Positions 40,296 to 53,669 of a DNA stretch of 64,000 bases are shown piece after piece. The position numbers and the translations under genes were made by a program. The notes under the pieces were generated by a model. That model saw nothing but the letters and a program-made list of their open reading frames with translations. It searched no databases and was not told the origin of the DNA. The stretch is from Nevskia sp. (lineage in GTDB: Bacteria > Pseudomonadota > Gammaproteobacteria > Nevskiales > Nevskiaceae). The first letter of the stretch is position 1, and each line of letters opens with the position of its first letter. Where the stretch lies: assembly GCA_016779605.1 (NCBI GenBank), contig JADHNH010000004.1, positions 1-64,000 of the forward strand. The letters are read 5' to 3'.

Positions 40296-41645
40296 ATGAA
40301 GCACTTGCGTTGGCTGCCGCTTGCGGCGGCACTGCTGCTGGCCCCATTGCTGTCGCTGGCCGCCGGCACCGCCGCGGTGGTCGACCGCATCGTCGCGATC
40401 GTCAACGACAGCGTGATCCTGCAAAGCGAGCTCGAGCAGGCCACCCTGATGGCGCAGAGCGAAATGCGCCAGCGCGGCATCAGCCCGCCCGCGCAGGCGG
40501 TGCTGCGCACGCAGGTGCTCGAGCGCCTGATCCTGCTCAAGCTGCAGACCCAGCGCGCCAAGGAAGCCGGCGTCAAGGTGGAGGACCGCGAGCTCAACGA
40601 AGTGCTCGCCAACATCGCCGCGCAGAACAAGCTGAGCGTCGCCGAGTTCGCCCAGCAGGTCAAAGCCGAGGGGCTGGACTACATCTCGCTGCGCGAGGAG
40701 ATCCGCGAACAGGTGCTGGTGCAGCGCGTGCGGCAGAAGGAGGTGGCTTCGCGCATCGTCGTCACCGACCAGGACGTCGACCAGTACCTGGCGGCCTCCG
40801 GCGCCGACGACCCCAACGAGTTCAGGCTTTCCCACATCCTGGTGGCGGTCACCGAGGCCGGCAACCCGGAGCTGCGCGAGAAGGCGCGGCTGAAGGCGGA
40901 AAGCCTGCTCAAGCGGCTGCGCGCCGGCGAGGACTTCGCCCAGCTCGCCGTCGCCGAATCCGACGGCCAGCAGGCCCTGCAGGGCGGCGACCTCGGCTGG
41001 CGCAAGGCCGCGAGCCTGCCCACGGCGTTTTCCGCGGTGGTGCCGCGGCTCGCCATCGGCCAGGTCAGCGACGTCATCGAGGCGCCGAACGGCTACAACA
41101 TCATCCGGCTGGCGGACAAGCGCAGCGTCGGCCAGCGCCAGACCATCGTCGAGACGCATGCGCGCCATATCCTGCTGAGCACGAACACCATCCGCAACGA
41201 GGACGCCACGCGCGCCCAGGCGTTCGAGCTGTACGACCGCCTGCGCAAGGGCGACGACTTCGTCGCCCTGGCCAAGAAGTACTCCGACGATCCCGGCTCC
41301 AAGATGAGCGGCGGCGACCTCAACTGGCAGCCGGCGGGCTCGTTCGCGCCGGAGTTCCAGGAGCGCATCGACGCGCTGGAGCCCGGCCAGATGACGCAGC
41401 CGTTCCACTCGCAGTTCGGCTGGCATATCGCCCGCGTCGAGGGCCGCCGCACCCGCGACATCACCGAGGAAGCGCGCCGCGCCCGTGCGCGGCAGGCGAT
41501 CCAGCAGCGCAAGGAAGGCGAGGAGTACGAAGTGTGGCTGCGCCGCCTGCGCGAAGAGGCCTACGTCGAATACCGGATGGCATCGGAGCAGGCCGATTCC
41601 GGCGCGCCGGCAATGTTTCCGGCAAGGGCGACCGCCGCGCCCTGA
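40296..41645 (+). CDS. surA: Periplasmic chaperone/peptidyl-prolyl isomerase SurA
   Basis: Escorts unfolded outer-membrane proteins to the Bam complex. The 449-residue precursor has a signal peptide (cut near SLAAG, about residue 23) and the SurA N-terminal domain ([20 protein letters not shown]). Two parvulin domains follow, beginning at [11 protein letters not shown] and [11 protein letters not shown], each with the GGDLGW or GGDLNW motif. A C-terminal helix closes the protein. It lies 41 bp after lptD and 25 bp before pdxA in the widespread lptD-surA-pdxA-ksgA order. Confidence 0.96.
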
Positions 41646-49952: not shown

Positions 49953-50702
49953 TCACGCGCCAGGCTCCAGCCAGATCAGTGCGGCCATGCGGCCGGTGAC
50001 GCCGTCGCGCCGGTAGGAAAAGAACCGCGCCGGATCGGCATGCGTGGACACGCCGCCGCCGTACACGCGCGTCACGCCCGCCGCGCCCAGGCGCCGGCGG
50101 GCCAGTGCGAACAGGTCCGCGAAGAACTTGTCCGGCCGCCCCGCCGCGACGAAAGCCGACGCGGCCGCGCGGTCGCACTCGACGAAGCGGGCGCGGACTT
50201 CGGCGCCGACTTCGAAGGCTTCGGCGCCGATCGCCGGCCCCAGCCAGGCCAGCAGGCGCGCCGGCGCGGCCGGCAGGGCCGCCACCGTGGCTTCCAGCAC
50301 TCCGGCGGCGAGGCCGCGCCAGCCGGCATGGGCCGCGGCGACCATGGTGCCGGCTTCGTCGCACAGCAGCACCGGCAGGCAGTCGGCGGCCTGCACCGCG
50401 CAGACCGCGCCGGCCGCCTGCGCATAGGCCGCGTCGGCCTGCGGCAGCGCCTCGGCATCCGGCAACCGCACCACCCGCGTGCCATGCACCTGGCGCAGCC
50501 AGCAAGGCTCCTGCGGCAGGCGCAGCGCCTGCGCCACGCGGCGGCGGTTTTCGACGATCGATTCGGGCCGGTCGCCGCTGCCGCCCATGTTGAGGCCGGC
50601 GTAAGGCCCGCCGCTGACGCCGCCGCCGCGGGTGGTGACGGCCGCGCGCACGCGCGGCGGCGCCGGCCAATCGGGCCGGAGGAAGGCAAGCGGCTCGCTC
50701 AT
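49953..50702 (-). CDS. pgeF: Multicopper oxidase-fold purine nucleoside phosphorylase/peptidoglycan editing factor
   Basis: YfiH/LACC1-family protein, linked to correct amino acids in peptidoglycan stem peptides in E. coli and to purine nucleoside cleavage in relatives. The 249-residue product has the metal-site motifs RQVHGTRVVRL, QAADCLPVLL and AAAHAGWRGLAAGV. GPAIGAEAFEVG is also typical. Start ATG 50702 overlaps the rluD stop by four bases. The rluD-pgeF order is widely conserved. Confidence 0.94.
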   Translation of the reverse strand: MSEPLAFLRPDWPAPPRVRAAVTTRGGGVSGGPYAGLNMGGSGDRPESIVENRRRVAQALRLPQEPCWLRQVHGTRVVRLPDAEALPQADAAYAQAAGAVCAVQAADCLPVLLCDEAGTMVAAAHAGWRGLAAGVLEATVAALPAAPARLLAWLGPAIGAEAFEVGAEVRARFVECDRAAASAFVAAGRPDKFFADLFALARRRLGAAGVTRVYGGGVSTHADPARFFSYRRDGVTGRMAALIWLEPGA

Positions 50703-51670
50703 GCGCGCAAGTTTCGCGATTCCGGCCCGCGCACGCCAGCGTCGCGCAGCCGCTGCAGCAGTTCCTGCATGTCGGCCGGCGGCTCGGCGGTAAAGCGCAG
50801 CGTCGCCCCGGTCACCGGGTGCTCCAGCTCCAGCTCGCGCGCATGCAGCGCCTGCCGCGGAAACGCCTGCAGTGCCGCGCGCAGCTCCGGCGCCATGCCG
50901 GCGCCGCGCACCACGCGCCCGCCGTACAGCGGATCGCCGGTGACCGGGTGGTGCAGGCTCGCCATGTGCACGCGGATCTGGTGCGTGCGCCCGGTTTCCA
51001 GCCGCACGCGCAGCAGGGTGTGGTGCAGGAAGCGCTCCTGCACGCGGTAATGCGTGACCGCGCGGCGCCCGCGCTCGACGATGGCCATGCGCAGCCGGTT
51101 GTGCGGGTCGCGGCCGAGCGGGGCGTCGACGGTGCCGCCGGCGACCACCGCGCCGTTGACCAGCGCGTCGTATTCGCGCCGGATCCGGCGCGCCGCCATG
51201 GCCGCCACCAGCCGCGTGTGCGCCGGCACGGTCAGGGCTACCAGCAGCAGGCCGGACGTGTCCTTGTCGAGCCGGTGCACCAGGCCGGCACGCGGCACCG
51301 CGGCGGTCTGCGGGAAGCGATGCAACAGGGCGTTCTGCACGGTGCCGTCGGGCGCGCCGGCGCCCGGGTGGACGATCAGCCCGGGCGGCTTGTTGATGAC
51401 CGCCACGGACTCGTCGGCGTGCACCACGTCCAGCGCGATCGCCTGCGGCCCGCTGACCAGGGTCTCCGCTTCCGGTTGCAGCAGCAGCAGGCTGTCGCCG
51501 GCGTGCACCGGCTCGCGCGGACGCGGCACCGCGGCGCCGTTGCGCGTCAGCTGGCCGCGCTCGATGAGCCGCTGCAGCCGTGCGCGGGAATAGTCCGGGA
51601 ACAGCCGCGCCGCGGCCGCGTCCAGGCGCGCGCCCTCGAGCTCCGGGGGCACCTGCGCGTGCAACGGCAT
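50699..51670 (-). CDS. rluD: 23S rRNA pseudouridine synthase RluD
   Basis: Makes pseudouridines in helix 69 of 23S rRNA. The 323-residue protein has an N-terminal S4 RNA-binding domain (ARLDAAAARLFPDYSRARLQ) and the catalytic Asp in GLVHRLDKDTSGLLLVA. ETGRTHQIRVHM and HPVTGDPLYGG follow. RluD rather than RluC is favoured by the pgeF and divergent bamD neighbours. Start at ATG 51670; an open frame continues upstream without coding character. Confidence 0.93.
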   Translation of the reverse strand: MPLHAQVPPELEGARLDAAAARLFPDYSRARLQRLIERGQLTRNGAAVPRPREPVHAGDSLLLLQPEAETLVSGPQAIALDVVHADESVAVINKPPGLIVHPGAGAPDGTVQNALLHRFPQTAAVPRAGLVHRLDKDTSGLLLVALTVPAHTRLVAAMAARRIRREYDALVNGAVVAGGTVDAPLGRDPHNRLRMAIVERGRRAVTHYRVQERFLHHTLLRVRLETGRTHQIRVHMASLHHPVTGDPLYGGRVVRGAGMAPELRAALQAFPRQALHARELELEHPVTGATLRFTAEPPADMQELLQRLRDAGVRGPESRNLRA

Positions 51671-51720
51671 GGGCGCGCCGCGGGGATCGGTCACGCGGGT
51701 TGCGCGCTGCGGTGCTGGGG

Positions 51721-51726
51721 TATACT
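51721..51726 (+). promoter_or_regulatory. Candidate -10 box for bamD
   Basis: TATACT lies 63 bp before the bamD ATG. A TTGCGC at 51700-51705 could be the -35, but the spacing is only 15 bp. The spacer is divergent with rluD. Confidence 0.4.
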
Positions 51727-51788
51727 GCGAGTTCGGTTCAACGCGCCCACTCCCGGCCAATACAACTCCCCGCCTGATAGTCAAGTTA

Positions 51789-53669
51789 ATGCGAATCCCG
51801 TCCGTACCGCGGCTGCTACTGGCCGCCGCTGTCGCCGTGTGGATCGCCGGCTGCAGTCACAACAGCGACCGTCCCGACCGTGACAACCCTTTCAAGAACA
51901 GCGAAAGCGGCGACGTCGACACCAAGACGCTGCTCACCGAGCGCGAACTGAGGCTGCAGGCGGACCAATTGTACCGCCGCGCGCGCGACGCCACGGAAGC
52001 CGGCGACTACCAGGCCGCCATCACCCGCTACGACCAGCTCATCGCCAAGTATCCGTTCTCCGATTTCTCGACCCAGTCGGAAATGGAGAAGGTATTCGCG
52101 CTGTACAAGAGCCAGAAGGCGGACGAGGCGCTGTCGGCGGCGGACCGGTTCCTGCGCTCGCACCCGCGGCACCCGCACGCCGACTACGTGCAGTACCTGA
52201 AAGGCCTGGCCGACTTCGACCGCGACCAGAGCCTGGCCAGCATGATCGGGGCCAACAGCCCCAAGCGCGACGTCAGCAACCTGCGCCGCGCGTTCGAGGA
52301 TTTTGCGCTGCTGCTGCAGAAGTACCCGAACTCACGCTACGCCGGCGACGCCCGCCGCCGCATGCTGTTCGCCCGCAACCGGGTGGCGGACCACGAACTG
52401 TCGATCGCCAGGTTCTACTACGCCGACCGCGGCGCCTATGTCGCCGCGGCCAAGCGCGCCACCGACATCGTTGCCGACTATCCCGGCGCGCCGGCCACCG
52501 CCGAAGCGCTCGAGATCCTCAAGAACAGCTACGCCAAGCTGGGCCTGGCGCAGCCGGCCAAGGATGCCGAAACCCTGGCGGCGATCAATCCGACCAAGCT
52601 CGAATACCCGGCAGCGCCGGCGGCGTCGCTGACCGCAACGGCCGAAGCGGCGCCGCCGGCGGCCGCAGCGGCGGCGGGCGCAGCCAAGGACAGCGGCGGC
52701 GGCATCCTCAACGGCGTGTCCACCACGCTGGGCAGCGGCCTGGCGGCGGTGTTCGACGCGGTCGGCATCACCAAGGCGGACCAGCGGCAGGGCGCCGCAC
52801 CGGCCGGAACGGCGCCGCAGCCGGAGGCCGGCGGCGAAGCGGGCGCCAGGAGCGGCACCGCCGCGGCGCCGGTCGACAAGAGCGGCAACCCGATCAGCCG
52901 CACGGTCAACGGCCTGTTCGGCCTGCTGGTCAGCCCGGGCTCGCCGCCGCCGAAGCGGCACGAGGAAATCAAGCTGCCCAAGAGCCAGCCGTCCACGCCC
53001 AAGGCGGAGCCGGCTCCGGAGGCACCCGCTGCGCCCGCCGCACCCGCAGGCGCTGTCCCCGACACCGCCGCACCGCCCGCGGCGGCGGCGCCCGCGCCGG
53101 TACCGCCGGTGCCAACCGCGCCGCCGGCGCCCGCGGTGCAGCTCGCGCCGCCGGCCGACGCCGCGGCGGCAGCTGGAAAATCGCCCGGCCTGATGGAGCG
53201 CTTCGCCCACATGTTCGACGTGTTCGACAGCACCAAGCCGACGCACCAGCACACGCTGGTGCTGCCGAAGTCGGGCAGCGGCGGCGCCGCGGCCCCGGCG
53301 GCAGGTGCGGCGGCAAGCAGCGCGGCGGCTGCGGCCGGCGGCGCGGCAGCGCAACCCGCTGCGGCATCCGGCGCGGAGTCGCCCGGCCTGATGGGGCACT
53401 TCGCCCACATGTTCGACGTGTTCGACACCACCAAGCCGGAAAACCAGCACACCCTGGTGCTGCCTTCGGTCAGCAACGGCAGCAGCACGGCGCCGGCGGC
53501 AGCGGACGGCACGCCCGCAGCCGCGGGCAGCAAGCTGCACATGGAAATCGGCTACCCGGAAGCGCAGCCGGCTCCTGCCGCGCCGGCCAAGCCGGCCGAC
53601 GGCGGTGCGGCCGCAGCGGCGCCGGCACCCGCCACGCCGGACGACAAGAAAGGCGACAGCGCCAAGTAG
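51789..53669 (+). CDS. bamD: Outer membrane assembly lipoprotein BamD with long repeat-bearing extension
   Basis: Essential lipoprotein of the BAM complex that inserts outer-membrane proteins. The first 275 residues are a standard BamD: lipobox IAGC (lipidated Cys22), then TPR helices (QLYRRARDATEAGDYQAAITRYDQLIAKYPFSDF and following). Unusually, about 350 extra residues follow, giving 626 instead of about 245-280. The extension is Ala/Pro-rich with two nearly identical 29-residue modules (465-493 and 531-559) built on SPGLM..FAHMFDVFD.TKP and ending QHTLVLP. Earlier short segments (GSGLAAVFDAVGITKAD, VNGLFGLL) may be degenerate copies. No frameshift separates core and extension. The tail would lie in the periplasm. 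Start ATG 51789. Confidence 0.93.
   Translation: MRIPSVPRLLLAAAVAVWIAGCSHNSDRPDRDNPFKNSESGDVDTKTLLTERELRLQADQLYRRARDATEAGDYQAAITRYDQLIAKYPFSDFSTQSEMEKVFALYKSQKADEALSAADRFLRSHPRHPHADYVQYLKGLADFDRDQSLASMIGANSPKRDVSNLRRAFEDFALLLQKYPNSRYAGDARRRMLFARNRVADHELSIARFYYADRGAYVAAAKRATDIVADYPGAPATAEALEILKNSYAKLGLAQPAKDAETLAAINPTKLEYPAAPAASLTATAEAAPPAAAAAAGAAKDSGGGILNGVSTTLGSGLAAVFDAVGITKADQRQGAAPAGTAPQPEAGGEAGARSGTAAAPVDKSGNPISRTVNGLFGLLVSPGSPPPKRHEEIKLPKSQPSTPKAEPAPEAPAAPAAPAGAVPDTAAPPAAAAPAPVPPVPTAPPAPAVQLAPPADAAAAAGKSPGLMERFAHMFDVFDSTKPTHQHTLVLPKSGSGGAAAPAAGAAASSAAAAAGGAAAQPAAASGAESPGLMGHFAHMFDVFDTTKPENQHTLVLPSVSNGSSTAPAAADGTPAAAGSKLHMEIGYPEAQPAPAAPAKPADGGAAAAAPAPATPDDKKGDSAK

Follow-up and report, generated by a model that had tools for sequence, protein, structure and literature searches.

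The essential protein BamD is usually compact, and the mechanism of BAM has been worked out mostly in E. coli. In the literature, the N-terminal lariat of BamC is described as a disordered part of BAM that carries short conserved motifs and binds a partner within the complex. For alphaproteobacterial BamD, a C-terminal extension of 60 residues is mentioned in one report (PMC3359395). Beyond this remark, a literature search, which missed most subscription journals, returned no description of a modular BamD tail, in Nevskia or elsewhere.

The bamD gene analyzed here belongs to Nevskia sp. GCA_016779605.1 (contig JADHNH010000004.1), whose genome holds one full-length copy. The window is the whole 64-kb stretch of DNA that was analyzed, and the positions below refer to it.

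The bamD gene and its C-terminal tail

51789 to 53669, + strand: bamD, whole gene; lipoprotein of 626 aa (MRIPSVPRLLLAAAVAVWIAGC...), stop codon at 53667 to 53669, one continuous open frame
51951 to 52589, + strand: BamD TPR domain, approximately residues 55 to 267 (TIGR03302/PF13525, AlphaFold2, Foldseek)
52584 to 53666, + strand: C-terminal tail, residues 266 to 626, 361 residues, Ala/Pro-rich, predicted to be disordered
52701 to 52781, + strand: degenerate helix element 1, GILNGVSTTLGSGLAAVFDAVGITKAD; similar to the C-terminal helix of the BamD at locus L029 (shuffle P = 0.002, one of eight comparisons, uncorrected)
52887 to 52982, + strand: degenerate helix and strand element 2 (tentative), NPISRTVNGLFGLLVSPGSPPPKRHEEIKLPK; weak likeness (P = 0.026, one of eight comparisons, uncorrected), hydrophobic cluster at residues 369 to 386
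53181 to 53267, + strand: module 3, SPGLMERFAHMFDVFDSTKPTHQHTLVLP; amphipathic helix, turn and strand
53379 to 53465, + strand: module 4, SPGLMGHFAHMFDVFDTTKPENQHTLVLP; near-identical copy of module 3
53529 to 53570, + strand: last ordered-looking segment (tentative, by eye), SKLHMEIGYPEAQP; Nevskia relatives have similar segments at the end of their tails

The core of this BamD is ordinary. TIGR03302 matched residues 8 to 267 (E = 5.9e-67, 225.6 bits, cut-off 81.4), and PF13525 matched residues 57 to 263 (E = 5e-57, 193.4 bits, cut-off 25). A lipoprotein signal with a lipobox Cys was recognized by reading, and Cys22 was almost invariant in the BamD alignment. Residues 51 to 266 were folded by AlphaFold2 with a pLDDT mostly above 90, and Foldseek matched the predicted TPR fold to E. 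coli BamD with a TM score of 0.92 by target length. The divergent neighbors, assigned only by reading of their translations, are an RluD-like gene (50699 to 51784, - strand) and a YfiH-like gene (49953 to 50702, - strand); the E. coli bamD gene is likewise divergent from rluD and yfiH. Neither Rfam families nor tRNAs were found in the 64-kb window.

The initial annotation had described an extension of about 350 residues in a continuous frame, beginning at position 52611 (residue 275). The extension was confirmed and measures 361 residues when counted from residue 266, the longest tail observed in Nevskiaceae. It contains 99 Ala and 53 Pro residues, and its third-position G+C content (0.88) is close to that of the TPR part (0.92), indicating that the tail behaves like coding DNA. 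No recognized domain was found past residue 267 in Pfam and NCBIfam searches. In the AlphaFold2 model, which was based on a shallow alignment of 52 sequences, most of the tail had a pLDDT below 50 to 60, the modules appeared as short low-confidence helix scraps, and the tail was not docked on its own TPR domain. A profile of the C-terminal 'LxIxYExPDD' segment, built from other genera, had no match in the Nevskia tails, the window segment at 53529 to 53570 included.

Modules 3 and 4 lie exactly where the annotation had placed two nearly identical 29-residue modules. They share 24 of 29 residues and 90% of their bases, and the similarity drops to background at both edges. The best 29-residue self-match in the tail was 24, whereas 200 tail shuffles averaged 11.8 and never exceeded 14. 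The divergence of the two copies is low relative to that between species, which points to a recent duplication. Of the weaker relatives that had been proposed earlier in the tail, element 1 stood up in the shuffle comparison, while the likeness of element 2 was only weak.

By reading, the module consists of an amphipathic aromatic helix (PGLM.RFAHMFDVF), a polar turn (D.TKP.NQ) and a hydrophobic strand (HTLVLP). Residues F12, D16, K19, P20 and Q23 were invariant in eight long-form Nevskia copies, whose pairwise identity was 11 to 24 of 29. The aromatic/acidic core noted previously is present, but it is only part of a unit that combines a helix, an invariant D..KP..Q turn and a strand. Other genera have the same kind of strand after the helix (KEIIIPSS, IELVLPSA, LELVIPSS). 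With a profile built from those genera alone, the strands of both window modules scored at levels reached by none of 100 shuffles. The invariant polar turn residues and the strand suggest recognition of a specific protein surface, beyond mere amphipathicity. Two candidate relationships were rejected. Structural relatives of the module in the PDB were chance-like matches only (designed leucine-rich repeats, Phd antitoxin). As a mimic of the OMP beta-signal, QHTLVLP, judged by reading, lacks the G of the consensus polar-x-G-x-x-[aromatic/hydrophobic]-x-[aromatic/hydrophobic] (PMC11401910).

Distribution of the module and selection on the tail

BamD relatives were gathered by an alignment query of genome contigs. 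In the BamD tree built from these contigs, the nearest named relatives of the window BamD were Nevskia MAGs and Nevskia soli, within the Nevskia clade of Nevskiaceae. The tails in this clade were mostly 140 to 250 residues long and in a continuous frame, which removes the earlier doubt that a stop or frameshift at residue 275 had been missed. With a helix profile seeded from Nevskia-clade tails, the window copies included, true copies scored 16 to 29 bits, and none of 2,250 shuffled tails exceeded 5 bits. Nevskia BamDs carried zero to three strong module matches, with one to three in most, two in the window and three at locus L012; the counts drawn on the BamD tree also include, in two clades, a second partial match at 2 to 4 bits or unscored. 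The number of modules therefore varies among Nevskia relatives around a constant core, as the annotation had anticipated, and its reservation that no relative might share the module did not hold. Single copies were detected in Panacagrimonas (L027), Stagnimonas (L053) and another Nevskiaceae genome (L060).

The module was exclusive to BamD. A 32-position module profile matched only BamD in its own genome (E = 3.5e-18 and 2e-17), the next match having an E value of 2.7, and in 25 genomes all matches with E < 0.05 were at BamD loci. Non-BamD carriers of the module, which might have hinted at a partner, were accordingly absent from these 25 genomes. Two Nevskia-clade BamDs, L016 and L010 (the latter truncated by a contig end), had no strong module match, so that the module is perhaps dispensable. 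The elements of clades A and B have no KP..Q turn, indicating that the long form of the module is not universal even within the genus.

Several other features of BamD tails were observed in this survey. In a second Nevskia clade (L021, L022, L024, L026, L033), the tail has an extra conserved element, ASLxTGPYxGxPVVVDVPPVF, with a pN/pS of about 0.21. The tail of Solimonas fluminis BamD (L030/L059) has two different strand-like repeats, GNGWSIELGGKPLYRG and KGFFTVELEGEEVIGP, and the tails of its closest Solimonas relatives are only 38 to 59 residues long. Judging from their BamDs, which group within the Nevskia clade, three public contigs titled Verrucomicrobia, Lysobacteraceae and Rhodospirillales (L046, L064 and L072) appear to be misnamed. 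A short aromatic tip, often Trp-Trp plus basic residues, ends BamDs in many other gammaproteobacterial families (L140, L143, L144, L156, L159, L165, L167, L175, L180, L182) and is possibly a widespread membrane-facing element; two motifs of this kind are present in P. aeruginosa chain 9pxg_D.

Selection was compared in two close Nevskia groups. Their element is related but shorter and lacks the KP..Q turn, and the result accordingly bears on the element family and not on the exact form found in the window. No indels were detected in the modules, compared with gaps in 7 to 8% of codon pairs in the linkers. The pN/pS ratio was 0.12 to 0.25 in five of the six elements, compared with 0.39 to 0.54 in the linkers and 0.12 to 0.16 in the TPR domain. 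The remaining element, the first helix in one clade, had a pN/pS of 0.44, near that of the linkers. These results mark the tail as a genuine addition to BamD, specific to the lineage and maintained by selection, and not as an error fusion.

Possible function of the tail

The tail may act as a multivalent flexible periplasmic tether whose 29-residue docking modules bind a protein partner of BAM or of its chaperones, an explanation in which we have moderate confidence. The earlier proposal of linear motifs on a disordered tether fits the disorder predicted by AlphaFold2 and the contrast in selection between modules and linkers; for peptidoglycan as the partner, nothing was found in favor. The tether would display two strong copies of the module and probably two degenerate ones, each of which would fold on binding its partner. 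The amphipathic aromatic helix would fill a hydrophobic groove of the partner protein, the D..KP..Q turn would set the geometry of the bound module, and the TLVLP segment would join the partner as an edge strand. Multiple modules on one disordered chain could provide higher avidity and reach. The partner, either a BAM subunit (e.g., a BamA POTRA domain) or a chaperone (e.g., SurA), would thereby be held near the outer-membrane assembly site. SurA and BamB are both present.

The main rival to protein docking is membrane anchoring, in which the module helices would be peripheral anchors on the inner leaflet of the outer membrane and would hold the membrane, or perturb it locally, in the vicinity of BAM. 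Amphipathic helices of the MinD and FtsA type lie on the inner membrane. The amphipathic moments were 0.55 to 0.71 for most helices, often greater than those of shuffles, and the module helices of several relatives are neutral to basic. In other families, short aromatic-basic tips (RRWWQIF, KWWWPF, PWWRRLFL, RGLLSRLFK) are common at the BamD C terminus, and in P. aeruginosa the last residues of the solved BamD chain, RSWWSYMTFGLFD, look membrane-interfacial. Anchoring is nevertheless weaker as an explanation for the acidic window modules, which have a net charge of -1 and a lipid discrimination factor D of 0.19 to 0.26, compared with 2.1 for the FtsA control, and thus fall short of the MinD/FtsA type. 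Lipid binding would also leave the invariant D16, K19, P20 and Q23 and the strand unexplained, and we regard anchoring as possible but rather unlikely. A specific form of docking, in which the modules recruit SurA through its P1 domain, is doubtful. The FWDIF of the structurally characterized P1 ligand NFTLKFWDIFRK (PDB 2PV2/2PV3, cited in PMC11401910) resembles the MFDVF of the modules, and a complete surA gene with two PPIase repeats, by reading, is located in the window (40296 to 41645, + strand), about 11 kb from bamD. SurA also binds BAM in E. coli (PMC11970506). However, a resemblance over five residues may be due to chance, the preference of SurA is Ar-X-Ar rather than the F-x-x-F of the modules, and many BamDs function with SurA although they have no tail of this kind.

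Compensation by the tail for lost helix-grip domains of BamC in the order Nevskiales was also considered. Canonical BamC (PF06804) was undetected in all 31 genomes of the order but was detected in 89 of 143 genomes of the class, and the lipoprotein encoded after dapA resembles only the BamC lariat. Several relatives without detectable BamC nevertheless have BamD tails of only 10 to 60 residues, and the tail has no recognizable helix-grip sequence or predicted fold. Because BamDs with short tails are also present in genomes without detectable BamC, replacement of BamC by the tail is not claimed, and such compensation seems highly unlikely. There is equally little reason to regard the tail as low-complexity sequence that evolves neutrally and is tolerated in a genome of high G+C content, with a local duplication that arose by chance. 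Such sequence might be expected to be rich in Ala and Pro, with fast-evolving, indel-bearing linkers and recently duplicated copies, as in the window, but the modules are kept between species, and purifying selection on most of them is about as strong as on the TPR domain. Least credible of all is an assembly or frameshift artefact that joined BamD to another frame. The genome is a draft of 188 contigs, but independent assemblies of relatives have the same continuous architecture and the coding signal runs on through the tail; fusion by sequencing error was rejected on the basis of this common architecture.

At the position of bamC after dapA, Nevskiales relatives encode a lipoprotein of about 90 to 130 residues with the motif Y...P..APEGM..P....Y.VP, similar to the BamC N-terminal lariat.

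L094 (2327 to 2630), L097 to L099 (approximately 2321 to 2753), L111, L113 and L115: BamC-lariat-like lipoprotein, downstream of dapA

A comparison of this lipoprotein with the BamC profile gave an hhalign E value of 0.00032 with a probability of 39%, and the best E value for PF06804 was 0.0004, with matches in two of nine members. These values are suggestive, but not conclusive, of a relationship to the BamC lariat, and a lariat match in the genome of the window itself is doubtful. A broader form of the docking explanation, speculative and quite unlikely, is that BAM in this lineage was rebuilt around BamD, with BamC reduced to a BamD-binding lariat and BamD gaining a disordered multicopy docking arm for direct recruitment of a chaperone or other partner, a route of substrate delivery not known in E. 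coli. If the modules do dock a protein, a lineage that added and duplicated a conserved docking module on BamD alone would offer a natural route to a missing BAM partner. Should this partner be a chaperone, the hand-over of unfolded outer-membrane proteins to BAM, which is an open question, would become testable with one peptide.

Comparison with known systems

The disordered tail with short motifs is reminiscent of the BamC lariat. The lariat, however, belongs to a separate protein and has an unrelated motif, and its local counterpart is the small post-dapA lipoprotein rather than the BamD tail. In P. aeruginosa BamD (341 aa, PDB 9pxg/9pxi, chain 9pxg_D), the linker similarly has two short aromatic helix-like motifs, RSWLAKATLGLI and the chain-terminal RSWWSYMTFGLFD. 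This tail differs in its length of about 100 residues and in that its motifs have neither the D..KP..Q turn nor the TLVLP strand, and homology of its helices to the Nevskia module is at most a possibility. The alphaproteobacterial BamD also has an extra C-terminal segment; compared by description only, it is much shorter, and no repeated module is mentioned in the accessible part of the source (PMC3359395).

In BamDs of other orders, represented by 49 genomes chosen as best-scoring and longest-frame cases rather than as a random sample, the sequence past residue 265 was 4 to 57 residues long, with one exception of 161, compared with 361 in the window. The exception, L183 (G078), is from a distant reduced genome of about 1.1 Mb and has a charged tail of apparently unrelated sequence. 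The lipoprotein signal, the TPR fold and the rluD/yfiH-like neighborhood are all shared with BamD/YfiO (TIGR03302, PF13525). The BamD core is therefore known and ordinary, and it is the repeat-bearing modular tail that sets this protein apart.
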